A stretch of DNA of 64,000 nucleotides. It comes from Nitrosarchaeum sp. (GTDB lineage Archaea > Thermoproteota > Nitrososphaeria > Nitrososphaerales > Nitrosopumilaceae). Positions 30,929 to 44,723 of the stretch are shown piece after piece. Position 1 is the first letter of the stretch; every line of letters begins with the position of its first letter. The position numbers and the translations under genes were made by a program. The stretch lies in assembly GCA_025699025.1 (NCBI GenBank), contig JAILWJ010000002.1, positions 248,001 through 312,000 of the forward strand, written 5' to 3'. Under the pieces are notes generated by a model. That model worked only from the letters and a program-made list of their open reading frames with translations, was not told the DNA's origin and did no database searches.

Positions 30929-32005
30929 CTACTTTTGCAGTGTCTTTACTATTCTCTTTGCAGAATCCCCTTTTCCATAGGGGGATATTTTTACTTTTAC
31001 TGGTTTCTTGTCCCATTCTGCTTTAATTGTGTCTTTGATTTTTTGATATTCTAAAGGAACAAGCTCAGCAATTTTCATGCTGATTGCTTCTGGACGCTCT
31101 GAGGATGTTCTTAAAACTAGCACTCTTTTAGATAATAATGGCGATGTGCATTCTTCTTGTATTCCGCCAGAATCTGTTATGATGAATCTGCAATTTTTCA
31201 TCAACGAAAGAAAATCTAGGTATCCCTGTGGGTTTAGAATCTGAATATGCTTTTCATTTTTCAATCTGTCTAATAGGTTGTATTTCTTTAACATTTTTCT
31301 AGTTCTTGGATGTAGTGGAATAACTGTACAAATTTTTGAACTGATAATTCCCTTTATTATCTTGTTTAAAACTACTTCATTATCCACATTTTCTGCCCTA
31401 TGTAATGTTCCAAGAGCATACTCTGAAAATCTTATCTTTTGCATAACTGTAGATTTCTTGTCTGCCAATGGCAAATGCTCTCTAATTGCATCCATTACTG
31501 TATTTCCAGAAATGAATGTTTTTCCACTAACTTTTTCATTGATCAGGTTTTGGTATGAAGTTTTTGTTGGCGCAAATAAAAAGTCTGATACGTGATCTAC
31601 CATTCTTCTATTGTGTTCTTCTGCCATTCTCCAGTCATAGCTTCTTAGTCCTGCTTCAACATGTGCAATTTTCTTTTTGAGTTTTATTGCTAGTAATGCT
31701 GTAGCAAGTACACTGTTGGTATCACCCTGAACTATGATGATGTCATTTTTTCCTTTTACTTGATTTTCAAGTTTTGTCATTATCTCTGCTATTTGTGAAG
31801 CAGGCGTCTTTGATTGTAGCTTTAAACTAAAGTCTGGCTCTGCAATCTCCAAGTCTTGAATAATCTGAGTTGATAGCTGATAATCATAATGTTGACCGGT
31901 GTAAATGAATTTGTGTTCTATTTTATTGTCTACCATGTGGCGAATGATTGGTGCTATCTTGATAATCTCTGGTCTGGTACCAGCTACAATAACAAATCTT
32001 TTCAT
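30929..32005 (-). CDS. wecB: UDP-N-acetylglucosamine 2-epimerase (non-hydrolysing)
   Basis: 358 aa. Converts UDP-GlcNAc to UDP-ManNAc. Family marks: VAGTRPEIIKIAPII, YTGQHYDYQLS, VQGDTNSVLATALLA, HVEAGLRSYDWRMAEEHNRRMVDH, and the C-terminal TDSGGIQEECTSPLLSKRVLVLRTSSERPEA (read in pieces). It follows wecC by 16 bp on the same strand, so both steps to UDP-ManNAcA are co-transcribed. Confidence 0.95.
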   Translation of the reverse strand: MKRFVIVAGTRPEIIKIAPIIRHMVDNKIEHKFIYTGQHYDYQLSTQIIQDLEIAEPDFSLKLQSKTPASQIAEIMTKLENQVKGKNDIIIVQGDTNSVLATALLAIKLKKKIAHVEAGLRSYDWRMAEEHNRRMVDHVSDFLFAPTKTSYQNLINEKVSGKTFISGNTVMDAIREHLPLADKKSTVMQKIRFSEYALGTLHRAENVDNEVVLNKIIKGIISSKICTVIPLHPRTRKMLKKYNLLDRLKNEKHIQILNPQGYLDFLSLMKNCRFIITDSGGIQEECTSPLLSKRVLVLRTSSERPEAISMKIAELVPLEYQKIKDTIKAEWDKKPVKVKISPYGKGDSAKRIVKTLQK

Positions 32006-32021
32006 GATGATACGAAACAGA

Positions 32022-33380
32022 TTATTTTAATAAACTATAGTTATTCTTGATGCCTTTGTTGTTATATCCAATAGATACGTAAGTAAATCCCACATTTTCT
32101 GCAATCTCCTTATCAAAAATTCTTCTTGTATCAATTAATATTGGATCATCATTCATGTCTTTTTTCATCTCTTGCAAGTTGATATTTTTGTATTCGTCAT
32201 GATCTGTCAAAATGACTACTACATCTGAGTTTTTGATAGCCTTTGATATGTTTTCTTCATATTTTGCACCAAAGCTAATTTTTGAATGTGGATCGTTAAT
32301 CTTTACATTACTGCATGTCTCCAAAAGGAGACTTGCAATTTTTTCTGAGGGTGAATAACGCGTATCGCTAACATTTCCTTTGTAGGCAGTTCCTAAAATT
32401 GTAATTGTTGAATTTTTAATCTCTTTGTTCTGTTCTTTTAGAGTGTTTTCAATCAAATGAAATACATGACTTGGCATGTAGTCGTTTATCTTTCTTGCAT
32501 TGGAAATAATTTTGGAATCTATCTGTTCTGAGTCTTGAGGATTTAATAACAAATATGGATCTTTTGGAAGGCATGGCCCTCCCACTCCTGGTCCGGGCGT
32601 TAGCAGATTAACTCTGGGATGCGAATTGCATATCTTTTGAATCTCTAGTACGTCTATATCATATCTTTCACATATCATAGCTATCTCATTGGCTAGTGCA
32701 ATGTTGACATCTCTAAATGTATTTTCTACTAGTTTACAAGTTTCAGCTACAATTGGACTGGTTTTGAAAATGTCTGCTTTGATGATTTTTTTGTATAAAT
32801 CATATGTAACGTCCCTTGATTTCTGATCCCTAGCTCCTATCACGCGTGGTGTTGTATTGATCTCCTCAAATGCCTGACCTGGCGATAATCTTTCTGGTAC
32901 ATAACTTGCAAAAATGTTCGTCGTTTTATCTCCAGACAGACTGGGCAAAATCATTGACTCAAATGTCTTTGGCGGTATCGAGCTTTCTATCACTATTAAT
33001 TTATTTTTCAATTCAAACCTTGATATTGTATCACACGCATTTTTTAGAAGGGAAAGATCCGGCTTGATCTCTTTTGAGATTGGGGTTGGCACACATACAA
33101 TAATTACATCTGATTCTGCTATTGCATTTTGATCCAATGTCGGAAAGAATCTCTCTTCTTTACGAGATTTGATCAACATCTCTTCAAGTATGGGTTCTTC
33201 AAATGGTGATTTCCCATTTTTTAAGAGTTCAATGTGATCTTTATCTACGTCTAACCCCCTTACAACAAATCCAACATTGCAGAAAGACAGTGCAACAGGA
33301 AGGCCTACTTGGCCCAATCCAACTACGCATATCTGAGCTTTACTAGAATTGATTCTCTCTTGCAGCTCCTCTTGCATCAT
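32022..33380 (-). CDS. wecC: UDP-N-acetyl-D-mannosamine dehydrogenase
   Basis: 452 aa. NAD-binding VVGLGQVGLPVALSF at the N-terminus, catalytic-Cys segment GGPCLPKDPYLL in the middle (about 255), and the C-terminal UDP-sugar domain (ILGTAYKGNVSDTRYSPS). Oxidises UDP-ManNAc at C6 to UDP-ManNAcA, a sugar acid of archaeal surface glycans. First gene of the wecC-wecB pair; diverges from the DUF4214 protein gene. Confidence 0.93.
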   Translation of the reverse strand: MMQEELQERINSSKAQICVVGLGQVGLPVALSFCNVGFVVRGLDVDKDHIELLKNGKSPFEEPILEEMLIKSRKEERFFPTLDQNAIAESDVIIVCVPTPISKEIKPDLSLLKNACDTISRFELKNKLIVIESSIPPKTFESMILPSLSGDKTTNIFASYVPERLSPGQAFEEINTTPRVIGARDQKSRDVTYDLYKKIIKADIFKTSPIVAETCKLVENTFRDVNIALANEIAMICERYDIDVLEIQKICNSHPRVNLLTPGPGVGGPCLPKDPYLLLNPQDSEQIDSKIISNARKINDYMPSHVFHLIENTLKEQNKEIKNSTITILGTAYKGNVSDTRYSPSEKIASLLLETCSNVKINDPHSKISFGAKYEENISKAIKNSDVVVILTDHDEYKNINLQEMKKDMNDDPILIDTRRIFDKEIAENVGFTYVSIGYNNKGIKNNYSLLK

Positions 33381-34642: not shown

Positions 34643-35326
34643 ATGAAATCAATTTGTTTTATTGGAGCTAGGGGAGGTTCTAAGGGTGTTAAAAGAAAGA
34701 ACATCAAATTGCTTGGTGGCAAACCTCTAATCTCCTATACGATAGAATCGGCATTAGATTCCAAATGCTTTACTAACGTGATTGTCTCTACAGAAGATAA
34801 GGAAATTGCATCAATTGCAAGACAATATGGCGCAGACGTTCCTTTTATGAGGCCAAAAAAATTAGCCACTGACTCTTCCGGAATGAGTGACGTGTTGATT
34901 CATGGAATTCTAAAACTGCGTTCATTAGGATACGATGTTGACATTATTGTCAACCGTGACTGTACTGTTCCTTTCATAGGATCTAAAGAAATCCAAAATG
35001 CAATAACGCTATTTAAAAAATCCAAATGCAATGGCGTTTATTCTGTTTTTCGACAACATCAAAACCCCTATTTCAATATGATGGAGCCTGATTCAAACGG
35101 CTATCTTCAACTAAGTAAAAAGCCAAAACATAAGATTCTTAGACGTCAGGACGCGCCTGTAGTGTATCAATTAAACGGTTTGTTTGTAATTAATCCTGAA
35201 AAACTGATGAAATACAAATCTACAATCATGCCCAAAATTCTTCCTTTTGAGATTTCTCCTGAACAGGGATTCATGATTGATACCGAATTAGAATTCAAAC
35301 TGGCAGAGCTAATGCTGAAAGAATAA
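34643..35326 (+). CDS. CMP-nonulosonate (acylneuraminate) cytidylyltransferase
   Basis: 227 aa. The nucleotide loop is FIGARGGSKGVKRKNIKLLGGKPLI (read in part), with VNRDCTVPF where the second substrate region lies and SPEQGFMIDTELEF at the C-terminus. Charges a sialic, legionaminic or pseudaminic-type sugar with CTP. It opens the nonulosonic-acid part of the locus. Confidence 0.85.
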   Translation: MKSICFIGARGGSKGVKRKNIKLLGGKPLISYTIESALDSKCFTNVIVSTEDKEIASIARQYGADVPFMRPKKLATDSSGMSDVLIHGILKLRSLGYDVDIIVNRDCTVPFIGSKEIQNAITLFKKSKCNGVYSVFRQHQNPYFNMMEPDSNGYLQLSKKPKHKILRRQDAPVVYQLNGLFVINPEKLMKYKSTIMPKILPFEISPEQGFMIDTELEFKLAELMLKE

Positions 35327-35398: not shown

Positions 35399-36370
35399 AT
35401 GGCATACAATATCTTGTTAATTGGAAGTGGGAATGTCGGAAGCCGTCACTTGCAAGCTCTGGTGAAAATCCCTTTTAAAATTCAAATTGATATTATCGAG
35501 CCAAAAAAGTCTGCAAAAGAACTAAGCATTTCTAGATTAAATGAAATCAACTATGATGAAAAGACAAAATTAATTGTATGGCATGACTCGTACAATTCCA
35601 AGATTCCAAAAAGCAGTGTTGTCATAGTCTCGACTCTTTCAAAAGGACGCTCAGATTTATTGAATCAATTGATAATGGACGGTCATACTCGAATTCTGTC
35701 TGAAAAGACCCTCTGCCAGTCAAAAAGTGAGTTTGACAAAATAATCAAAACCTGCAAAAAATATGGTGCAAAAATATGGGTAAATACTAACCCCAGATGC
35801 TTTGCCTCGTATAAAAAATTAAAAAAACTAATTCCAAAACAATCGCAAGTAAACATGGTTGTTAATTCAAATCCAGAACTTGGTATGGGTACTAACGCAA
35901 TTCATTATATCGACTTGTTTTCATGGCTAAATGATGATTATGACATAAAATTAGACGGAGCACATTTGCTAGATCTGCTATCAAATAAAAGAGGCACGGA
36001 TTTTATTGAATTTTCTGGAACTGTTATGGGAATTTTGAAAAACCATGCAATTTTTGTCATGTCGTTCTTAGACAATTATCCTAAAAGCGTAACTGTAAAA
36101 ATTTCCACAAACACGTCTGATTTCTATATCGATGAGACTGCTGGTACACTATTGCAAATTAAAAAAAATAAATGCAAATCCGAGAAATTTACTTTTGAGC
36201 ATGTAAGCTCTTTGACAAAAAAAATAATCATGGATATCATCGCATCTGATTCTTGTTGTCTTCCAACAATTCTTGAATCATACAACGGACATCTTGAGCT
36301 TTTCAGAATATTCAACCATCATATTTTCAAAAAAACAAAAAAGAGAGTAAATCTATGTCCAATAACATAA
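35399..36370 (+). CDS. Gfo/Idh/MocA-type oxidoreductase
   Basis: 323 aa. N-terminal NAD(P) fold LLIGSGNVGSRHLQAL; the usual EKP motif is LSEKTLCQS (about 100) and the following VNTNPRCFASYKKL replaces the common VGFNRR. The C-terminal half is the alpha/beta sheet domain with NAIHYIDLFSWL. Likely acts on a nucleotide sugar or nonulosonate precursor. Its end overlaps the next gene by 16 bp. Confidence 0.75.
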   Translation: MAYNILLIGSGNVGSRHLQALVKIPFKIQIDIIEPKKSAKELSISRLNEINYDEKTKLIVWHDSYNSKIPKSSVVIVSTLSKGRSDLLNQLIMDGHTRILSEKTLCQSKSEFDKIIKTCKKYGAKIWVNTNPRCFASYKKLKKLIPKQSQVNMVVNSNPELGMGTNAIHYIDLFSWLNDDYDIKLDGAHLLDLLSNKRGTDFIEFSGTVMGILKNHAIFVMSFLDNYPKSVTVKISTNTSDFYIDETAGTLLQIKKNKCKSEKFTFEHVSSLTKKIIMDIIASDSCCLPTILESYNGHLELFRIFNHHIFKKTKKRVNLCPIT

Positions 36371-37362
36371 CTGAATTATCGCCATATGATATCATTTCAG
36401 ATTTGCCTGTTAACAAATTTGAAAATGTCTCTGTAACAATAATTGGAGGTGGATACATGGGTCAGGAATATGCCAAGGCGTTGGAATGCCTGAATATCTC
36501 TAATGTCAAAATTATCACAAACTCCAAAAAAGATCCTAAACTGTTTAGTACAAAGTTTGAGTATGATGTATTGTCTGGAGGATTTTCAAAACACATTAAA
36601 TCATTGAACAAGCAAGATCTTGTAATAATCGCAACTCCTACAGAGTTATTAGACCAAGCATGCAGTTTGTGTGTAGATTGTGGCCAGACAAATATTTTAA
36701 TTGAAAAACCAGGCTCTCTCTTCTCTGAAAACCTGAAACTTTTAATCCAAAAATCAAAAAACTGTAGAATCCGTGTTGCCTATAACCGACTGTGTTATCC
36801 GAACGTATATCTTTTAAAAGAATTATGCAAAAAAGAAGGCGTTCTTTCATGCAAGTTTGATTTTACTGAATGGGTTCATAAAATTCCATTTAATGTTTAC
36901 ACTGATGACGAATACAAATTATGGGGAATAAGTAATTCATTACATGTCATTTCCTTAGCATTTGAATTAATTGGAATGCCAAAAAACATTGCATGTTTTA
37001 CTGCTGGTTCTTTAGCATGGCACCCTTCAGGCTCAATTTTTGTGGGAAGCGGGATATCTGAGAACGACATTCCGTTTTCATATCATGCAAATTGGGAATC
37101 ATCTGGCAGATGGATGGTAGAAATTATGACCAAATCCAATTCATATCGATTAATGCCCTTGGAGACAATCTCTGTTTGCAAAAAGGGCACCGTAGACTGG
37201 AACCCAATTGATTTTAGTTCCACATATTCTAAAACAAAACCGGGAATTCTAGAACAAGTAGTCATAATGTTGGATAAAAACTTGGAACAATCATGTCCAT
37301 TGATCACGTTGGAGAAAGCACTAGACTATAACGAACTTGCAAGAAAAATTCTCAACTATTAG
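36355..37362 (+). CDS. Gfo/Idh/MocA-type oxidoreductase
   Basis: 335 aa. After ~20 residues comes the Rossmann motif TIIGGGYMGQEYAKALE; ILIEKPGSLFSEN (EKP) and VAYNRLCYPN (for VGFNRR) are present near 110-145. Partner or paralogue of the upstream gene, with which it overlaps. Substrate unknown; the operon suggests a role in nonulosonic-acid synthesis. Its last bases overlap the 3' end of the acyltransferase on the other strand by 4 bp. Confidence 0.75.
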   Translation: MSNNITELSPYDIISDLPVNKFENVSVTIIGGGYMGQEYAKALECLNISNVKIITNSKKDPKLFSTKFEYDVLSGGFSKHIKSLNKQDLVIIATPTELLDQACSLCVDCGQTNILIEKPGSLFSENLKLLIQKSKNCRIRVAYNRLCYPNVYLLKELCKKEGVLSCKFDFTEWVHKIPFNVYTDDEYKLWGISNSLHVISLAFELIGMPKNIACFTAGSLAWHPSGSIFVGSGISENDIPFSYHANWESSGRWMVEIMTKSNSYRLMPLETISVCKKGTVDWNPIDFSSTYSKTKPGILEQVVIMLDKNLEQSCPLITLEKALDYNELARKILNY

Positions 37363-37748
37363 AGATTTTTTTTAAATTTGGCTGGTACTCCTGCCCATAA
37401 CTGATTTGAGGGTATATTACAATTTACAAAAGAATATGCAGCAACCACAGAGTTTTCTCCTACTGTTACATTGGGCATAACTGTACTATGTGTGCCGATT
37501 TTACAATTCTTTTTAAGAACTACCTTTCCACTCTTATTGTCAATTGTTGAATTTGAGTAAATTGAACAATGCGAACCGATCTGCACGTTGTCCTGAATTT
37601 CTACACCTTCTTTACAATTTATGTATGAAAATGAGCCAATATCAAAATTCTTCCCGGTTCTAAGATTTTTAACATATTGTACTATGTAGTTGTATTTGGT
37701 TAATTTTGAATCTTTTATTATTGGCTTTCGCCATTTTTTATTTGCCAT
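37359..37748 (-). CDS. Left-handed beta-helix (hexapeptide) acyltransferase
   Basis: 129 aa of hexapeptide repeats (IGSFSYINCKEGVEIQDNVQIGSHCSIY, read in part; then GTHSTVMPNVTVGENSVVAAYSFV) ending AGVPAKFKKN, as in WbbJ/NeuD/LegH-like transferases. Expected to add an acetyl (or similar) group to an amino or hydroxyl group of a sugar. One base separates it from the 2-epimerase gene, so they are co-translated. Confidence 0.8.
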   Translation of the reverse strand: MANKKWRKPIIKDSKLTKYNYIVQYVKNLRTGKNFDIGSFSYINCKEGVEIQDNVQIGSHCSIYSNSTIDNKSGKVVLKKNCKIGTHSTVMPNVTVGENSVVAAYSFVNCNIPSNQLWAGVPAKFKKNL

Positions 37749-37749
37749 T

Positions 37750-38892
37750 TTAATACGCTAACTCCTTTTTTATAATGCTGTCTAAATTTATTTTTTCTAA
37801 AATGTTTGAAATCTTTTTTGAGGCTTTTTGATTACCATAAATCTTGCTAATTTTTAGATCTGATCTTCTTTTATCTAACGCAGAAAGTATTGCCCTTTTG
37901 ATTTTTTCATGTGAAAACTCTGATACGTTGATTACATTAGGTCCCTGCTCTCTATTTTTCTGCCTGCTTCCTATGTTTATTACAGGTATTCTAAACAGAC
38001 TTGCCTCAATAATGCCACTGCTGGAGTTGCCAATTAGTACCCCGCAATTCTCTAAAAAACCCAGAAAATCTTGTCTTGGAATATTGCTAAAAAATTTTAC
38101 ATTGGGGTTTTTCTCTTTGAATCTTTTCATCTTTTCAAAAATTAACTTGTTACCTGCATCAAAATTTGGACCGATAATGATGATGTCTGTTTTAATTTTT
38201 GACAGTGCCTGTATGGTCTCTGATATCTGTTTGTTTACATTGGAAACTTCTGTAGTTACAGGATGTTGAACCGCAAGAATACTTTTCTGAGTTAGTGTTA
38301 TGTCGTATTTCTTTTCAAGCGTTTCTTTTTTTGTGATATTCTTATTCAGAATTTCGTCTATGCTTAAGGAACCTGTATAGAAAATATTTTTTGGGCACTC
38401 TCCCATTTTTTTTATTCTTTCCGCACTCTTTTTTGTTGCTGCAAAATGTATGTTTGAAATCTTGGTAATGGCATGTCTTGTATACTCGTCTAACCCACCA
38501 GATTTATCTCCTCCATGAATGTGTGCATTTGGGATACTCATTTGGTATGCTGCTATGGCTGAAGCAAACATCTCGTATCTGTCTCCCAATACTACATTGA
38601 TTTGCGGCTTGAATTTCCTAAAAAATTCTGCAAAACTTGAAACCAGTTTTCCCATCGCAATAGTAGAATCAAACAATGTATCACATTTCTGATCTATTTT
38701 GATTCTTGAAGTTATCTTGAATCCGTCACTTTCAATTTCTTTGACGGTCATCCCGTGTTTTTTTGACAGATGTGAGCCTGTCACTACCAAGAGCAGTTCT
38801 AATTTTTTATTTTTAGTAATCTCTTGCAACAAGGGCCTAAGAATACCATATTCTGCCCTTGTACCTGTAGTCACAGCTATTTTTCTCTTCAT
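37750..38892 (-). CDS. neuC: UDP-sugar 2-epimerase, hydrolysing (NeuC/LegG-like)
   Basis: 380 aa. Begins KIAVTTGTRAEYGILRPLLQEI, the NeuC form of the start; VLGDRYEMFASAIAAYQMSIPNAHIHGGDKSGGLDEYTRHAITKISN (read in part) is diagnostic, with IGNSSSGIIEASLFRIPVINIG at the C-terminal site. It hydrolyses UDP-GlcNAc or a UDP-diacetamido sugar to the free ManNAc-type sugar used by NeuB. Lies between acyltransferase and amidotransferase with gaps of 1 and 3 bp. Confidence 0.92.
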   Translation of the reverse strand: MKRKIAVTTGTRAEYGILRPLLQEITKNKKLELLLVVTGSHLSKKHGMTVKEIESDGFKITSRIKIDQKCDTLFDSTIAMGKLVSSFAEFFRKFKPQINVVLGDRYEMFASAIAAYQMSIPNAHIHGGDKSGGLDEYTRHAITKISNIHFAATKKSAERIKKMGECPKNIFYTGSLSIDEILNKNITKKETLEKKYDITLTQKSILAVQHPVTTEVSNVNKQISETIQALSKIKTDIIIIGPNFDAGNKLIFEKMKRFKEKNPNVKFFSNIPRQDFLGFLENCGVLIGNSSSGIIEASLFRIPVINIGSRQKNREQGPNVINVSEFSHEKIKRAILSALDKRRSDLKISKIYGNQKASKKISNILEKINLDSIIKKELAY

Positions 38893-38895
38893 GAT

Positions 38896-40017
38896 TTAGA
38901 TTACTAAACCCGTGCCTACCTTAAATTTTGGATGCCATACACCATCATTGTCTTGCTCAAAGAGATCTCGATTGTACCACTTGTCCATAATATCCCAAAA
39001 CTCTTTTTTGCTCAATCCTGTAAAATCACAGAATTTTTGCACTATTCCTTGATCTAATTTTCCGTCTCTTTCTTCTACGATTGGGATCATCTCTTCTCTG
39101 GTTTTTATTCCATACCTGATCCATCTAGAGGCATTGTCTGTTGCAACAGAATGACCAAACTTTAAGAATTTCAGATATGGATTCAACATGTAGCTTAACG
39201 AATCAATCTGGTCATACTCGTCAATTGATCCCTCCCTTTCATATTCGTGGTTAAGATGCTTAAAGCCCCATCTTTGTGCAACTTGATAATTATGTACGGA
39301 ATTCCATGGTACAAAATAACTTAGGTAGATTGGATCTAACCCAAATTCCTTGCATTCTTCATATGTTGGAAATTTTGTTGGTTCCAAGTCTTTTTCTGAA
39401 ATTTCTTTATCGAACCATTCTTTCCATACGGGCTTTACAACATCATTGTCAAACTGATTTAATGCCGATGGCGTTTCCTCATCATGTTTTCCACCATAAG
39501 TATAGTTGACATCTTCACCGTACACTAGAAGTTTTGTATCTAATTTCATTGCCATTTTTGCAGGAAATGCATAGATTAAAGCATCTAGATACCATGATGG
39601 TGAACCGATCTGCTCAAAGGCTTTACGAAACATTTTTTTTGCGATTTTTCGATTAGGTTGAAATTGTATTATGTCGCAACCAAAAGACTCTGAAATATTT
39701 TCCAAATTTTCCCTTCCTGTATTTGTCCAATCAATATTGCCAACACTGAGCAAAACTGGATTCATCTTCAATTTTTCTTTCATTATGTATGTCTGAAAAT
39801 GTGAATCCTTTCCACCTGAAACAGCTATTGCACAATCATAACCGTCCCCATTAATGCCTCTGTATTTCTCACAAATTTTCTTTAATTCTTCAAATCTATC
39901 CTTCCAATTTGTTTTGGATTGTTTTTCAAAATTTATGCATGCCTTGCAAATTCCCTTATCATTGAACACTAATCCTGGCCTTGTGTCTGGCATCAGGCAT
40001 ATTTTGCAATATTTCAT
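38896..40017 (-). CDS. N-acetyl sugar amidotransferase (WbpG/PseA-like)
   Basis: 373 aa from ATG 40017 (MKYCKICLMPDTRPG), the conserved family N-terminus; the frame extends upstream to 40080. A CXXC pair (KYCKIC; then CKACINF) forms a zinc-like site and AVSGGKDSHFQTYI is the PP-loop that adenylates the acetamido group. Family members turn an acetamido group into an acetamidino group using ammonia from HisH/HisF-like partners, which are not encoded in this window. Confidence 0.88.
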   Translation of the reverse strand: MKYCKICLMPDTRPGLVFNDKGICKACINFEKQSKTNWKDRFEELKKICEKYRGINGDGYDCAIAVSGGKDSHFQTYIMKEKLKMNPVLLSVGNIDWTNTGRENLENISESFGCDIIQFQPNRKIAKKMFRKAFEQIGSPSWYLDALIYAFPAKMAMKLDTKLLVYGEDVNYTYGGKHDEETPSALNQFDNDVVKPVWKEWFDKEISEKDLEPTKFPTYEECKEFGLDPIYLSYFVPWNSVHNYQVAQRWGFKHLNHEYEREGSIDEYDQIDSLSYMLNPYLKFLKFGHSVATDNASRWIRYGIKTREEMIPIVEERDGKLDQGIVQKFCDFTGLSKKEFWDIMDKWYNRDLFEQDNDGVWHPKFKVGTGLVI

Positions 40018-40123
40018 ACCAAGACTAAATGTTCTGATAAATATAAATCCGATTTTAGTTACCTTGCAATAAAAATTCAAGTTTGTCTGCTATGTTTAAA
40101 AAGACATTCTCTTTTGGTACATT

Positions 40124-40816
40124 ATGGTGTTTCTAATTGGTGAAATTGGTGTAAATTGGAACGGTGATCTTGATATTGCCAGGCAACTTATGGTTGTTGC
40201 AAAGCAAAACAATCTGAATTCTGTAAAATTTCAATCATTCTCCAAAGAGATTGTCAAGGATCACCCCTTATCTGAAACACTTCTAGAATCTTCAATTTCT
40301 GAAAAAAACATTCAACAAATTGATGATCTTGCCAAAGAAATTGGAATTGATTGGTTTGCAACACCTATGTATCCCGAGGCTGTAAGTTTACTAGAGCCCT
40401 ATGTTAAAAGGTATAAAATCAGAGAATACGATGGGCGAGTTTTGGCCAAAAACAGCACCAGCAAACTCATAGACGCCATTCTTGAGACAGGCAAAGATGT
40501 CATCATTAGCAGCCAAGCATTACCATCAAAACTAAATTCAACTGGCAAAGTTGATTGGATTTACTGCGTGCCAAAATACCCGTGTAGTTTAGGAGATCTT
40601 GATTTTACAAAACTGTCTTTTTTCAAGGGCTTTTCTAATCACTGTCCGCACATAATAGCACCGCTATGTGCTTCAATCTTGGGTGCAAAAATTATTGAAG
40701 TTCACATGACACTAAACAAAAACGGAAATTTTGTGGACAATAATGTAAGCTTTGATCCGTCTGATTTGCAACAATTATCCAATCTGATATCGTCCTCAGA
40801 AAAAATAAAAAAATAA
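40124..40816 (+). CDS. NeuB-like nonulosonate synthase, catalytic barrel only
   Basis: 230 aa. Begins IGEIGVNWNGDLDIARQLM and NSVKFQSF, the NeuB start; both metal-binding His regions are there, FSNHCPHI (in GxSDHT position) and IEVHMTL (EKHFTL position), as is SFDPSDLQQL. Normal NeuB/LegI/PseI proteins are about 340 aa with a C-terminal SAF (antifreeze-like) domain, which is missing. No frameshifted SAF remnant follows before 40838. A TATA-like TTTAAAAAG 26 bp upstream gives a leaderless start. Condenses PEP with a ManNAc-like sugar, if active. Confidence 0.75.
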   Translation: MVFLIGEIGVNWNGDLDIARQLMVVAKQNNLNSVKFQSFSKEIVKDHPLSETLLESSISEKNIQQIDDLAKEIGIDWFATPMYPEAVSLLEPYVKRYKIREYDGRVLAKNSTSKLIDAILETGKDVIISSQALPSKLNSTGKVDWIYCVPKYPCSLGDLDFTKLSFFKGFSNHCPHIIAPLCASILGAKIIEVHMTLNKNGNFVDNNVSFDPSDLQQLSNLISSSEKIKK

Positions 40817-40837: not shown

Positions 40838-41647
40838 CTACCATGCGGTCCATCCGCCATCAATGATTAAATTTGAACCTGTCATGTATTTTGAGGAATC
40901 TGATGCCAAAAATAATATTGCACCATCATAGTCGTTTGGATTTGCCATCCTTCCTAACATTGTTCTCTTGGAATAATTCTTTACAAATTCTGAATTACCA
41001 TGGAGTTTTTTATCATAAACTCCTCCCAATGTCAAAGTATTCACTCTTACATTGTATTTTCCCCACTCTGATGCAAGATGTCTTGTCAGGTTGACGACTG
41101 CACCCTTGGTGGCTGAATAAAATGATGGTGAATTCAGTCTTGATTTTCCGTAAATTCTTTGATCAGGCCCTACAATTCCATAGATTGATGATACGTTAAT
41201 GATAGATCCAAATTTTTGTTTGATCATCGTTCTTCCTACCTCTCTACAACACAAGAAAATATTATTCAGATTGCTCTGGATGGTTTTCTCCCACAAGCTT
41301 AATGGGAACTTTTCAAATTTTGCATCAATGTTTGGATCACCTCTTGGAACATAGTGTGCATTGTTCACCAACACATCAATTGTTTTGAATTCCTGTCTGA
41401 TTTCTTTTACCATGTTTTTTACATTTTGTTCGTCTGAAACGTCTGTTGATTTTACAACAATTTTTCCTTTGGATTTGTCTTTTAATTTTTTTCTTAGTTT
41501 GGTGTTTTTTTCTTCCTCAGTATCTACTAGAATTAAATTCGCATTTGTAGATGCAAATGTCTCTGCAAAATGTGATCCGAGCCTGCCTGCAGACCCCGTA
41601 AGAATTACCGTTTTTCCTTCCAAGTGAAATCTATCTGTATCAGTCAT
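40838..41647 (-). CDS. SDR-family oxidoreductase
   Basis: 269 aa. TGSAGRLGSHFAETFA (cofactor loop), NNAHYVPRG (NNAG-like), catalytic Ser in INVSSIYGIVGP, Tyr-x-x-x-Lys in FYSATKGAV and a C-terminal GSNLIIDGGWTAW. Several nonulosonic-acid loci contain an SDR of this kind (PtmA in Campylobacter). Its ATG overlaps the stop of the Gfo/Idh gene (ATGA). Confidence 0.87.
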   Translation of the reverse strand: MTDTDRFHLEGKTVILTGSAGRLGSHFAETFASTNANLILVDTEEEKNTKLRKKLKDKSKGKIVVKSTDVSDEQNVKNMVKEIRQEFKTIDVLVNNAHYVPRGDPNIDAKFEKFPLSLWEKTIQSNLNNIFLCCREVGRTMIKQKFGSIINVSSIYGIVGPDQRIYGKSRLNSPSFYSATKGAVVNLTRHLASEWGKYNVRVNTLTLGGVYDKKLHGNSEFVKNYSKRTMLGRMANPNDYDGAILFLASDSSKYMTGSNLIIDGGWTAW

Positions 41648-42654
41648 CCAATCAACTTCATCTGTGATGATTTTTTTGCATCCAATGCCATTTTTAAAAT
41701 TTGATAATTTTGTTTCAAGTTATTCATGCTTTGCTTCCTTTTTGCTACACATTTTAAAAAATACTTTATTTCACTAGTATATGCATTATTGATATCAGCA
41801 TTCTCAACCTTGATTTTCACCCATTTGTTTTTTCTATTTGAGAAATATCTTATGGTGTTTTTGATTATGTCTAATTCTAAAATTCCTTCCGTACCTACAA
41901 TCTTCAATTTCCTTGACTTTGCTTTTTGAAAATAGCTCAGACTGATCTGCACTGTGAACAGATTTTTGTAAAATAGTATTATTTTTGCAAAATCTTCTGC
42001 CTGTATTTTTAAATTACTTATCTTTTTAATATCTGCACTAATTTTGGTTGGACTCCCAAATAACCAATAAACATAATCCATCTCATGAATGCACGTTAAT
42101 ACCACCCCTCCTCCCAATCTTGAATTTGCTGCATAACTTTTTGTATAATCTTCGTTAGGATGCCAATCAGGCAAGAATGAAAGATTTTCTATTTCGACAT
42201 CTAAAATCTTTCCAATTTTTTTACGTTTTAGCATTTTTTTAATCATTATGATTCCTGGATGAAATCTTAATACGCAACCTACATGCGTTACAAGCCGTTT
42301 GTTCTCAGCTGTTTTTATTAAATTTTTTACACCTGCAAAATTATTGGATAGCGGTTTTTCTATGAACAAATCTATTCCTGATTTTGATAATTTTGTTGCT
42401 ATTGGTATGTGTTGATTTGTTGGTGTGCAAATGATTGCAGCTTTTGGTTTTTGCTCCATTGCAAAATCAACCGAATCTGTTATGATGCAATTTTTATTTT
42501 TCAAGTGATCAATTTTTTGTTTTGTCAAAACAACAACTGGATGTTTTTTCATTAACAAAATATTGTTAACATGTCGTTTACCAATTGAACCATATCCGAC
42601 AACAAGAATCTTCAAACATTCTTTTTCCAAGTGACATGGAATATTAGTCTTCAT
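41644..42654 (-). CDS. Gfo/Idh/MocA-type oxidoreductase
   Basis: 336 aa from ATG 42654 (MKTNIPCHLEKECLKIL), preferred because the shared TATA box (42683-42690) would place transcription start after the upstream ATG at 42681. Rossmann motif VVGYGSIGKRHVNNI, EKP motif in LFIEKPLSNN (about 110) and THVGCVLRFHPG; HEMDYVYWLFG is in the sheet domain. Coupled to the SDR gene; probably acts with it on the same sugar. Confidence 0.82.
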   Translation of the reverse strand: MKTNIPCHLEKECLKILVVGYGSIGKRHVNNILLMKKHPVVVLTKQKIDHLKNKNCIITDSVDFAMEQKPKAAIICTPTNQHIPIATKLSKSGIDLFIEKPLSNNFAGVKNLIKTAENKRLVTHVGCVLRFHPGIIMIKKMLKRKKIGKILDVEIENLSFLPDWHPNEDYTKSYAANSRLGGGVVLTCIHEMDYVYWLFGSPTKISADIKKISNLKIQAEDFAKIILFYKNLFTVQISLSYFQKAKSRKLKIVGTEGILELDIIKNTIRYFSNRKNKWVKIKVENADINNAYTSEIKYFLKCVAKRKQSMNNLKQNYQILKMALDAKKSSQMKLIG

Positions 42655-42682
42655 TAGTTTTTCAACAAGGTTATGATACATT

Positions 42683-42711: not shown

Positions 42712-43572
42712 TTGAAAAGTACTGCCAACACGAAGACTCTTTTAAAAAATAAAACTGTTTTAGTTACTGGCGGTGCGGGGAGTATTGGCTCTGCCTTAGT
42801 TAGAAGGCTGTTGGATTTTCCAATAAAGGCCGTTAGAGTTCTTGATATTGATGAACATGGACTGTTCAAACTCAATCGCTCTATAGATGATAAACGCTTT
42901 AGACCGTTGTTAGGAAGTGTCATGGATCGTGAGAGAGTTGACATGGCAATGCAAAATGTGGATATAGTTTTTCATTTAGCTGCTGTCAAAAATATTGAAA
43001 TCACCGAATTTAACCCGATAGAAACTATTGATGTAATCATTAATGGAACCGTCAATGTGATCAAGTCCACCATTACCCACAAGCCTGGTTTTTTCATAAA
43101 CATCAGTACCGATAAGGCAGCTGATGCCTCTACACTGTATGGCTCTACCAAGCAGTTGGCAGAAAAACTTACCAGCTGGGCTGGATTTCATGTTGAATCT
43201 ACAAACTTCGGTACCGTCAGACTGGGTAACGTTTTGGAAACTAGGGGAAACGTGTTTGAAATTTGGAATGATGAAAATAACGAGGGCAAACCATTATCCA
43301 TTACGGATCCCCTGATGACTAGGTATTATTTTTCAGTTAATGAAGCCGTGGATTTTATTCTGCTATCCATGTCAAAAATCAAGCTAGGCGAAATTTGCAT
43401 TCCAAAAATGAAAAAATATAACATGATAGACCTTGCGTCAAAAATCTCAAAGAAACATAAAATAATTGGAATACGCCGTGGTGAAAAACTAGACGAGATA
43501 TTGCTTACTGAAGACGAGAAGGCACACTCTCAGGAACTGAGCAACATGTGGATCATAAAAACTAATTCTTAG
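42712..43572 (+). CDS. NAD-dependent UDP-sugar 4,6-dehydratase-like (FlaA1/PseB/CapD type)
   Basis: 286 aa from TTG 42712. TVLVTGGAGSIGSALVRRLL is the cofactor loop; NISTDKAADASTLYGSTKQLAEKL holds the SxDKA and YGSTK catalytic motifs of the PseB/FlaA1 branch, and the end has GIRRGEKLDEILLTEDE. It should remove water from UDP-GlcNAc to give a 4-keto-6-deoxy sugar, the substrate for the facing aminotransferase. About 40 residues shorter than PseB. Confidence 0.85.
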   Translation: MKSTANTKTLLKNKTVLVTGGAGSIGSALVRRLLDFPIKAVRVLDIDEHGLFKLNRSIDDKRFRPLLGSVMDRERVDMAMQNVDIVFHLAAVKNIEITEFNPIETIDVIINGTVNVIKSTITHKPGFFINISTDKAADASTLYGSTKQLAEKLTSWAGFHVESTNFGTVRLGNVLETRGNVFEIWNDENNEGKPLSITDPLMTRYYFSVNEAVDFILLSMSKIKLGEICIPKMKKYNMIDLASKISKKHKIIGIRRGEKLDEILLTEDEKAHSQELSNMWIIKTNS

Positions 43573-44723
43573 TTTTTTGTCTCAAAAAAGCCTGCTATTG
43601 ATTCTATCATGTAATCCATCTCTTCTAGAGTCATATTTGGAAACATTGGCAGTGTCAAAATTTTCTCGGAGATTTCCGTAGTAACTGGGAGAGAATCGTT
43701 ATTGCTCTCTGATTGTTTTTTGTAAAACTCTGTCATGTGTATTGGATTGAAATACACTTTGCACAAAATGCTTTTGCCTAGCAGGAATTTCTGCAGTTCG
43801 TCACGCGTTTTTTTATCTTGGAGTTTTATTGTATAGAACTGATAGGTATGCTCTGATCCGTATTTTGGGTCAGGAACCTCTATTGGAAATCGCTTTATCC
43901 TCTTGGAAATATACTCTGCATTGTTTTTTCGTTTAGAAATTAGAAAATCCAATTTTCTTAACTGTGACAAGCCCAAGGCCGCAGTAATTGAGGAAATTCT
44001 CCAATTGTATCCTACGCTTAAATATGATGCTTCATCTGGATTGCTAAAATAATTTACAGTATCCACACGACCGTGTGATCTTATTAGTTTTAGTTTCTCA
44101 TAGACTTCCTTTGACTGTGTTGCTACTGCCCCACCTTCTCCTGTGGTCAACACCTTGTTACCACAAAAGCTAAAAATTGTAGTCTCTGAAACACTTCCAA
44201 TCTTTCTACCGTTTATGCTGGATCCTAAACTCTCTGCCGCATCCTCGATAACTTTTATTTTATTATCTTGAGCAATCTTTGTTATCTCAAAAATATCGCA
44301 TGCTGCCCCAGCATAGTCCATTGGGATTATCGCCGTGGTTTTTGGCGAAATTTTTTTAGCTACTGATACCGGGTCTAACCCAAAATTGTGCCTTTCAATA
44401 TCTGCAAAGATCGGCTTTGCCCCTACAAACAATACTGAATTTGCCGTTGCAATAAATGAAAATGATGGCACTATCACCTCGGTATTTTTTTGAATGTTGT
44501 TTGCTAGCAGTGCTGCATGTAATGAAGATGTGCCTGAGTTCATTACACAGCAATAGTCGGCATTTATTTTACTGCATAACTCGTTTTCAAACTCTTCAAT
44601 TTCTGGCCCGAGTGCCCAATTACTTCCACGTTTGATTATTTTTGCAATTGACTGTACATCTTCGTCGTCTGTGTATATCCTATACAGCGGAATTTTCCAT
44701 TTCTCAAGGTTCTGCTCCTTCAA
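43569..44723 (-). CDS. DegT/DnrJ/EryC1-type sugar aminotransferase
   Basis: 384 aa. PLP enzyme converting a keto-sugar to an amino-sugar. Marks: NSGTSSLHAALLAN (about 61), VIEDAAESLGSSINGRKIGS (Asp/Gln region), FSFCGNKVLTTGEGG with the PLP-binding Lys, and YNWRISSITAALGLSQL. The facing dehydratase supplies the 4-keto substrate; together these give a UDP-4-amino-4,6-dideoxy sugar on the route to legionaminic/pseudaminic-type acids. Its end overlaps that gene by 4 bp. Confidence 0.9.
   Translation of the reverse strand: MKEQNLEKWKIPLYRIYTDDEDVQSIAKIIKRGSNWALGPEIEEFENELCSKINADYCCVMNSGTSSLHAALLANNIQKNTEVIVPSFSFIATANSVLFVGAKPIFADIERHNFGLDPVSVAKKISPKTTAIIPMDYAGAACDIFEITKIAQDNKIKVIEDAAESLGSSINGRKIGSVSETTIFSFCGNKVLTTGEGGAVATQSKEVYEKLKLIRSHGRVDTVNYFSNPDEASYLSVGYNWRISSITAALGLSQLRKLDFLISKRKNNAEYISKRIKRFPIEVPDPKYGSEHTYQFYTIKLQDKKTRDELQKFLLGKSILCKVYFNPIHMTEFYKKQSESNNDSLPVTTEISEKILTLPMFPNMTLEEMDYMIESIAGFFETKN

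Follow-up and report, generated by a model that had tools for sequence, protein, structure and literature searches.

A NeuB-family barrel without the SAF domain as the sole NeuB of an ammonia-oxidizing archaeon

Introduction

Among the described relatives of the protein considered here, NmeNeuB (SiaC of Neisseria meningitidis; structure 1xuu) and PseI of Campylobacter jejuni (8h2c) both bear a C-terminal SAF domain. As reported for NmeNeuB, the SAF domain of one subunit caps the active site of the other subunit, where Arg314 is its sole direct contribution; this residue is essential, the R314A variant being inactive and R314K, active (PMC6795526). In homology models of NeuB3 from C. jejuni, F129, the neighbor of the loop serine, is placed at the C2 N-acetyl group (PMC7371886).

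NeuB-family proteins without SAF are already on record elsewhere. The N-acetylneuraminic acid synthetase of Leptospira borgpetersenii (6ncs) is a 290-residue chain with the barrel aligned over residues 26–264, and hence has no space for SAF. Fusion proteins encoded in nonulosonic-acid clusters, namely a Leptospira NeuB with a C-terminal phosphatase-like domain (PMC3438082) and the NeuB–CTP transferase and NeuB–hexapeptide fusions of Fusobacterium (PMC4045943), have no SAF among the domains listed for them in these sources. Compared by listed domains, these synthases are fused to other domains, whereas the protein described below is a barrel alone. One more set, class C, found in archaea, Hymenobacter and a large phage, also combines the NeuB barrel with the absence of SAF. 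KDO8P and type I-beta DAH7P synthases are likewise PEP-condensing barrels without SAF.

Some marine ammonia-oxidizing archaea were previously noted to carry NeuA and NeuB genes (PMC8397731). In the literature searched for SAF-less NeuB and for nonulosonic acids in these archaea, with most subscription papers outside its scope, we found no discussion of a SAF-less NeuB, and no description of the lineage formed by clades A and B defined below, of genomes relying on these clades alone, or of their barrel arginine.

Here, we analyze a 64,000-nt stretch of Nitrosarchaeum sp. DNA (referred to as the window), corresponding to positions 248001–312000 of contig C2 in genome G000, an assembly of 1.7 Mb in four contigs with 99.99% completeness.

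Results

The Protein and Its Fold

The studied gene encodes a protein matching the Pfam family NeuB (PF03102) with 82.5 bits (cut-off 22.1), the match covering profile positions 13–234 of 241. NeuB is the only family found in this protein at E ≤ 0.001; the Pfam scan reveals no SAF domain, nor any match to the KDO8P and DAH7P synthase families at the same threshold. The scores are far under the cut-offs of both relevant equivalog models, that is, TIGR03569 (NeuB_NnaB, N-acetylneuraminate synthase; 92.4 of 399.65 bits) and TIGR03586 (PseI; 72.5 of 340.25 bits).

The AlphaFold2 model, obtained with ten clade A sequences as input (mean pLDDT 89.7, pTM 0.88), contains eight barrel strands, and the chain terminates directly after them. 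The closest solved structure, as compared with VIA-align, is 6ncs (Z 29.6, 1.9 Å, 224 residues, 27% identity); NmeNeuB (1xuu) aligns with Z 27.3 and 2.2 Å over 224 residues at 22% identity, and the matches to both structures span model residues 1–230. For PseI (8h2c) Z is 25.5. The KDO8P and type I-beta DAH7P synthases come after the NeuB structures, with Z about 20 and mostly 10–15% identity.

The open reading frame, the Pfam scan and the model agree with the original prediction that the synthase ends at 230 aa, just past the barrel, and has no SAF domain. The absence of a frameshift remnant, also predicted, is confirmed: the convergent SDR gene on the opposite strand ends at 40838 and leaves a gap of just 21 bases, so that a lost SAF domain has no space downstream, and both the start and the end of the reading frame match those of relatives. 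Frameshift or truncation is ruled out by these ends and this gap, and the protein is a complete NeuB-family (alpha/beta)8 barrel. That SAF was removed by a sequencing or assembly error has a negligible probability, given the same short gap and the SAF-less ends of all 11 complete clade A proteins from independent genomes.

An A/T-rich stretch approximately 25 bases upstream of the start codon looks, by eye, like an archaeal TATA box. Scans for sigma-70 promoters, terminators and repeats yielded no useful result.

SAF in the Host Genome

The PF03102 search of the host genome identifies one NeuB only, the window gene. A SAF domain encoded elsewhere in this genome is ruled out with two profiles: PF08666 has no match at E ≤ 1, and profile A3, built from 11 SAF-region C-termini of SAF-bearing relatives, finds no SAF either. 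PF08666 failed on the SAF domain of G215, one of four genomes with full-length NeuB, and A3 detected it. As A3 includes rows from all five genomes where it is positive (G013, G237, G135, G215, G214), its positives arise by construction, and only its negatives are informative.

Relatives and Phylogeny

NeuB homologs are present in 80 of the 250 genomes scanned in the window's family. Clade A is constituted by 12 genes in ten of these genomes (the window gene and 11 others at 47–58% identity), and one further locus, SAT139 (L061), belongs to it. In a phylum-wide scan (398 genomes), this clade is confined to the window's family, and all its hosts are ammonia-oxidizing archaea. The contig scan with the single window protein produced no match, while the scan with profile A1 produced 11 loci; viral sequences scanned with profile A1 have no match.

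The complete clade A rows (n = 11) are 230–247 aa long, and all of them finish at a common point or no more than 11 residues from it. Clade B comprises 20 rows of 235–251 aa, all SAF-less and mostly 30–36% identical to the query, whereas in the SAF-bearing class a longer C-terminus is seen in 34/34 rows. Hence, the SAF-less state is shared by all 11 complete clade A rows and all clade B rows, which is not what would be seen if a sequencing error had hidden the SAF domain or if every close homolog had it, the two cases named as capable of overturning the original prediction.

In the tree of 74 rows, the branch of clade A is supported with 100/100, that of clade B with 100/99, and that of A and B together with 98/92; the two clades with a 232-aa Azospirillum protein (L089) are separate from 42 others with 99/98. 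Left out of the tree were the clade A contig-edge fragments G030 and G235, L062, and one 165-aa fragment. Following the removal of three long rows, A and B still occupy one side of a branch with SH-aLRT 99. In this phylogeny, A and B are sister clades, together making up a SAF-less lineage distinct from SAF-bearing NeuB. The placement of L089 is unsure, as the row is long, oddly composed, and resembles plasmid-borne NeuB (with up to 37% identity), including SAF-bearing ones.

Class C proteins (274–299 aa) are placed in the tree beside the SAF-bearing proteins, apart from A and B. A constraint uniting all SAF-less rows gives p-AU of 0.057, which falls short of a firm rejection of their common origin.

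Co-occurrence With the Cytidylyltransferase

Out of the 250 genomes, NeuB is found in 80, a strong cytidylyltransferase match (E ≤ 1e-12) in 80, and both in 73 (Fisher 3.7e-46). Eleven genomes have been confirmed with PF03102 as holding only SAF-less NeuB of clade A or B; a cytidylyltransferase is encoded in nine of these, compared to seven of 170 NeuB-free genomes (Fisher p 1.2e-9), both p-values overstating independence, given the relatedness among genomes and the location of the genes in common sugar islands. Among SAF-less-only genomes with completeness of at least 96%, all five have the cytidylyltransferase (G000 and G236 with clade A; G022, G039, and G179 with clade B). Three more genomes (G064, G080, G098) are apparently SAF-less-only and all have the enzyme; they are excluded from the eleven, being without the PF03102 check. 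The direction is clear: genomes with a SAF-less protein as their sole NeuB retain the next pathway step, the CMP-activating enzyme.

Full-length NeuB is additionally present in six of the ten clade A genomes. In five genomes (G237, G013, G215, G135, G229) clade A and full-length NeuB are encoded on one contig, each with its own nearby cytidylyltransferase. Strong expansion of such cassettes is observed in G229, with seven NeuB-family matches, and in L061, where one clade A frame and two other NeuB frames lie within 16 kb.

Gene Neighborhood

The genes surrounding NeuB are listed in Table 1.

Table 1. NeuB and neighboring genes in the window, with the supporting matches and the number of clade A loci containing the respective family.
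Position	Strand	Predicted product	Evidence	Clade A loci
34643–35326	+	CMP-ulosonate cytidylyltransferase, PseF/NeuA type, likely next enzyme	PF02348, 84.4 bits; PseF, 157.9 bits (under cut-off 205.7); unique in the genome (E ≤ 1e-12)	7/13 (PseF-like group)
35399–36370	+	Gfo/Idh-type oxidoreductase	PF01408, 27.8 bits	3/13
36355–37362	+	Gfo/Idh-type oxidoreductase	PF01408, 29.5 bits	3/13
37359–37748	–	NeuD-like hexapeptide acetyltransferase, 129 aa	Hexapep, 53 bits; NeuD_NnaD, 66.4 bits (under cut-off)	10/13
37750–38892	–	NeuC, hydrolyzing UDP-GlcNAc 2-epimerase	TIGR03568, 417.5 bits (above cut-off 235.9)	10/13
38896–40080	–	WbuX-type N-acetyl sugar amidotransferase	TIGR03573, 335.5 bits (above cut-off 203.2)	5/13
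40124–40816	+	SAF-less NeuB-family barrel, clade A, 230 aa	Pfam NeuB; model; sole NeuB of the genome	13/13
40838–41647	–	SDR oxidoreductase, convergent to NeuB	adh_short_C2, 170 bits; PtmA model, 150 bits (under cut-off)	4/13
41644–42681	–	Gfo/Idh/MocA oxidoreductase	PF01408, PF22725	3/13
42712–43572	+	PseB-like UDP-GlcNAc 4,6-dehydratase	PF02719, 237 bits; PseB, 225.9 bits (under cut-off 407.75)	9/13
43569–44723	–	PseC/LegC-like sugar aminotransferase	PseC, 298.7 bits (under cut-off 423.5)	10/13

No gene family besides NeuB itself is common to all 13 clade A loci, with the reservation that contig ends truncate several loci and that families were joined at ≥33% identity, so that a fast-evolving small partner could escape. 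The best partners, NeuC and the NeuD-like acetyltransferase, are enzymes, and the separate lid protein suggested in the original prediction finds no support here; nor are the Gfo/Idh and SDR proteins, which it named as neighbors, constant in these loci (Table 1). One of the three loci where NeuC is absent, L041, is a short contig.

A cytidylyltransferase identified by PF02348, which also detects enzymes outside the PseF-like group, is located within 6 kb of nine of the 12 clade A genes in the ten genomes. For the other three, one PF02348 match lies approximately 16 kb away, and two contig-edge genes have none on the contig. In locus L040 the cytidylyltransferase best matches the KDO cytidylyltransferase models, with 71.5 bits, below the cut-off.

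The same sugar island contains, at 30929–33380, WecB (above cut-off) adjoining a UDP-ManNAc-dehydrogenase-like protein, that is, a second UDP-ManNAc route. Elsewhere, a single chain of 576 aa with NeuB, SAF and CTP_transf_3 domains is encoded in L043 (8658–10385), and more fusions of this type are suggested by G089 and G173, in which frames of 580 and 585 aa match cytidylyltransferases.

Active-Site Residues

Residue numbers are those of NmeNeuB, taken from the 1xuu alignment, with Sinorhizobium NeuB as the reference row. Eleven positions, E25, K53, Q55, K129, S154, Y186, S213, H215, E234, H236, and D247, are invariant in 11/11 clade A and 20/20 clade B rows. The metal-binding histidines H215 and H236 correspond to H173 and H194 of the window protein, so both are retained, as originally predicted. 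The accompanying claim, that the PEP/phosphate regions are kept, holds for the PEP-side lysines (K35 and K98 of the window protein) but not for S132, G131, N/S184, and G156, which are altered. The barrel, the metal histidine pair, the PEP-side lysines, Glu25, Gln55, Tyr186, Ser213, Glu234, and Asp247 are thus common to the window protein, NmeNeuB and PseI, whereas clade A differs from the two SAF-bearing enzymes by the changed S132 and N184.

In clade A, S132 is replaced by Glu in eight of 11 rows and by Met, Val, or Asn in one row each. The PEP pocket has N/S184 substituted by Pro, and G156, by Gln, Glu, or Asn, while the basic residue 235 becomes Val, Ile, or Phe, with loss of the charge. 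Other changes are H30 to Trp, F112 to Met, E134 to Asp, D214 to Asn, and I248 to Asn. On the contrary, S132, G156, and the basic residue 235 (Lys or Arg) are kept in 34/34 SAF-bearing and 20/20 clade B rows. As clade A alters residues that are invariant in both SAF-bearing NeuB and clade B, its donor or chemistry may differ. In clade B we observe replacements of H30 by Trp, T110 by Ser, and E134 by Thr. The K53–T110 stretch has a median length of 45 residues in clade A and 47 in clade B, compared to 59 in SAF-bearing rows.

Moreover, an arginine appears in the loop of both SAF-less clades. It replaces G131 in 11/11 clade A rows, being Arg100 in the window protein, and G133 in 19/20 clade B rows (Trp in the remaining one) and in the Azospirillum row. 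Neither position carries Arg in the 34 SAF-bearing rows, 27 of which have Arg at the aligned position of Arg314. Both positions are likewise free of Arg in 6/6 class C rows (counted without L020, cut by a contig end), which have S-G-H rather than S-N-H. The structure 6ncs keeps the usual KIAS loop start and, as aligned, has no Arg there, whereas clade A does.

Discussion

The window protein is probably a working nonulosonic-acid (sialic/legionaminic-type) synthase that dispenses with the cap provided by a partner subunit, an arginine in cis being the favored substitute. The metal-dependent barrel would join phosphoenolpyruvate to a ManNAc-type sugar, likely supplied by the neighboring NeuC, and the cytidylyltransferase at 34643 would then activate the ulosonic product. 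The barrel Arg, at the G131 site in clade A and at the G133 site in clade B, would replace the sugar- or PEP-binding role of Arg314 from SAF. We infer both the activity on such a substrate and this role of the arginine. As the short protein is the sole NeuB of its genome and the cytidylyltransferase is kept, it is most likely a working synthase, not a relic. Replacement in cis is suggested by the emergence of Arg in clades A and B, whose proteins have no SAF, in the loop of S132, where the residue adjoining the serine was modeled at the C2 N-acetyl group (PMC7371886); it is favored but unproven. Judging from the alignment, it is not a general rule, since class C proteins and 6ncs are SAF-less and have no such Arg.

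A tentative extension, possible but doubtful, is that clade A represents its own type of ulosonic-acid synthase, which lost or never acquired the SAF cap, bears the essential Arg in the barrel, and, with a rebuilt PEP-phosphate pocket, makes an unrecognized sugar or reaches a surface CMP-ulosonate of ammonia-oxidizing archaea by an unrecognized route.

The original prediction also raised a different aldol-type synthase. In this reading, which we consider rather unlikely, clade A would be an aldol synthase or lyase that depends on PEP or pyruvate and has the same metal site with an altered donor or a non-ManNAc acceptor; its product could be some other ulosonic acid, with CMP activation afterwards. 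The replacement of S132, G131, G156, and N184 of the PEP pocket in 11/11 clade A rows, together with the uncharged residue 235, is consistent with such an enzyme, as are the proximity of the fold to SAF-less KDO8P and DAH7P synthases and the KDO-like cytidylyltransferase of L040. However, both lysines, the metal histidines, and E25, Q55, Y186, S213, E234, and D247 are retained, and a NeuC scoring above the cut-off is situated 1.2 kb from the window NeuB and recurs in most clade A loci.

The loss of several otherwise invariant active-site residues in clade A could also be expected from a non-catalytic or regulatory NeuB paralog or a decaying remnant. This is improbable, as all 11 rows keep the metal ligands and 11 catalytic residues unchanged although relatives are just 51–58% identical, the frames are open and stop-free, and the genome has a cytidylyltransferase but no other NeuB.

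The lid could conceivably be provided in trans, either by SAF as a protein of its own or by some other small partner, since SAF in NmeNeuB acts on the other subunit (PMC6795526) and most clade A genomes also encode full-length NeuB. Such provision is nevertheless very unlikely: five genomes (G000, G236, G022, G039, G179) have no SAF by either PF08666 or A3, and no family accompanies NeuB in all clade A loci. Hence, the overall interpretation given in the original prediction is partly supported, its SAF-less synthase surviving both objections raised against it and its separate lid being the part without support.

Cells with only SAF-less NeuB probably close the reaction otherwise than by the SAF cap. 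Complete genomes in which SAF-less NeuB stands alone but the CMP-activating enzyme is kept offer a natural test of the cap's purpose. SAF-less NeuB also bears on surface decoration by ammonia-oxidizing archaea, and a missing full-length NeuB is no ground for calling a genome nonulosonic-acid-negative.

Several further observations concern NeuB proteins outside clades A and B. A 730-aa frame of Nonomuraea gerenzanensis (L090, 3633–5822) appears to combine a putative cytidylyltransferase-like domain, a HAD-like domain, and class C NeuB, and a 299-aa class C SAF-less NeuB is encoded in a 484-kb record of an uncultured phage (L091, 4920–5816). On two Azospirillum plasmids (L089, 5140–7693; L093, 2438–5338) asnB adjoins NeuB, one of the two NeuB proteins being SAF-less and the other, full-length.
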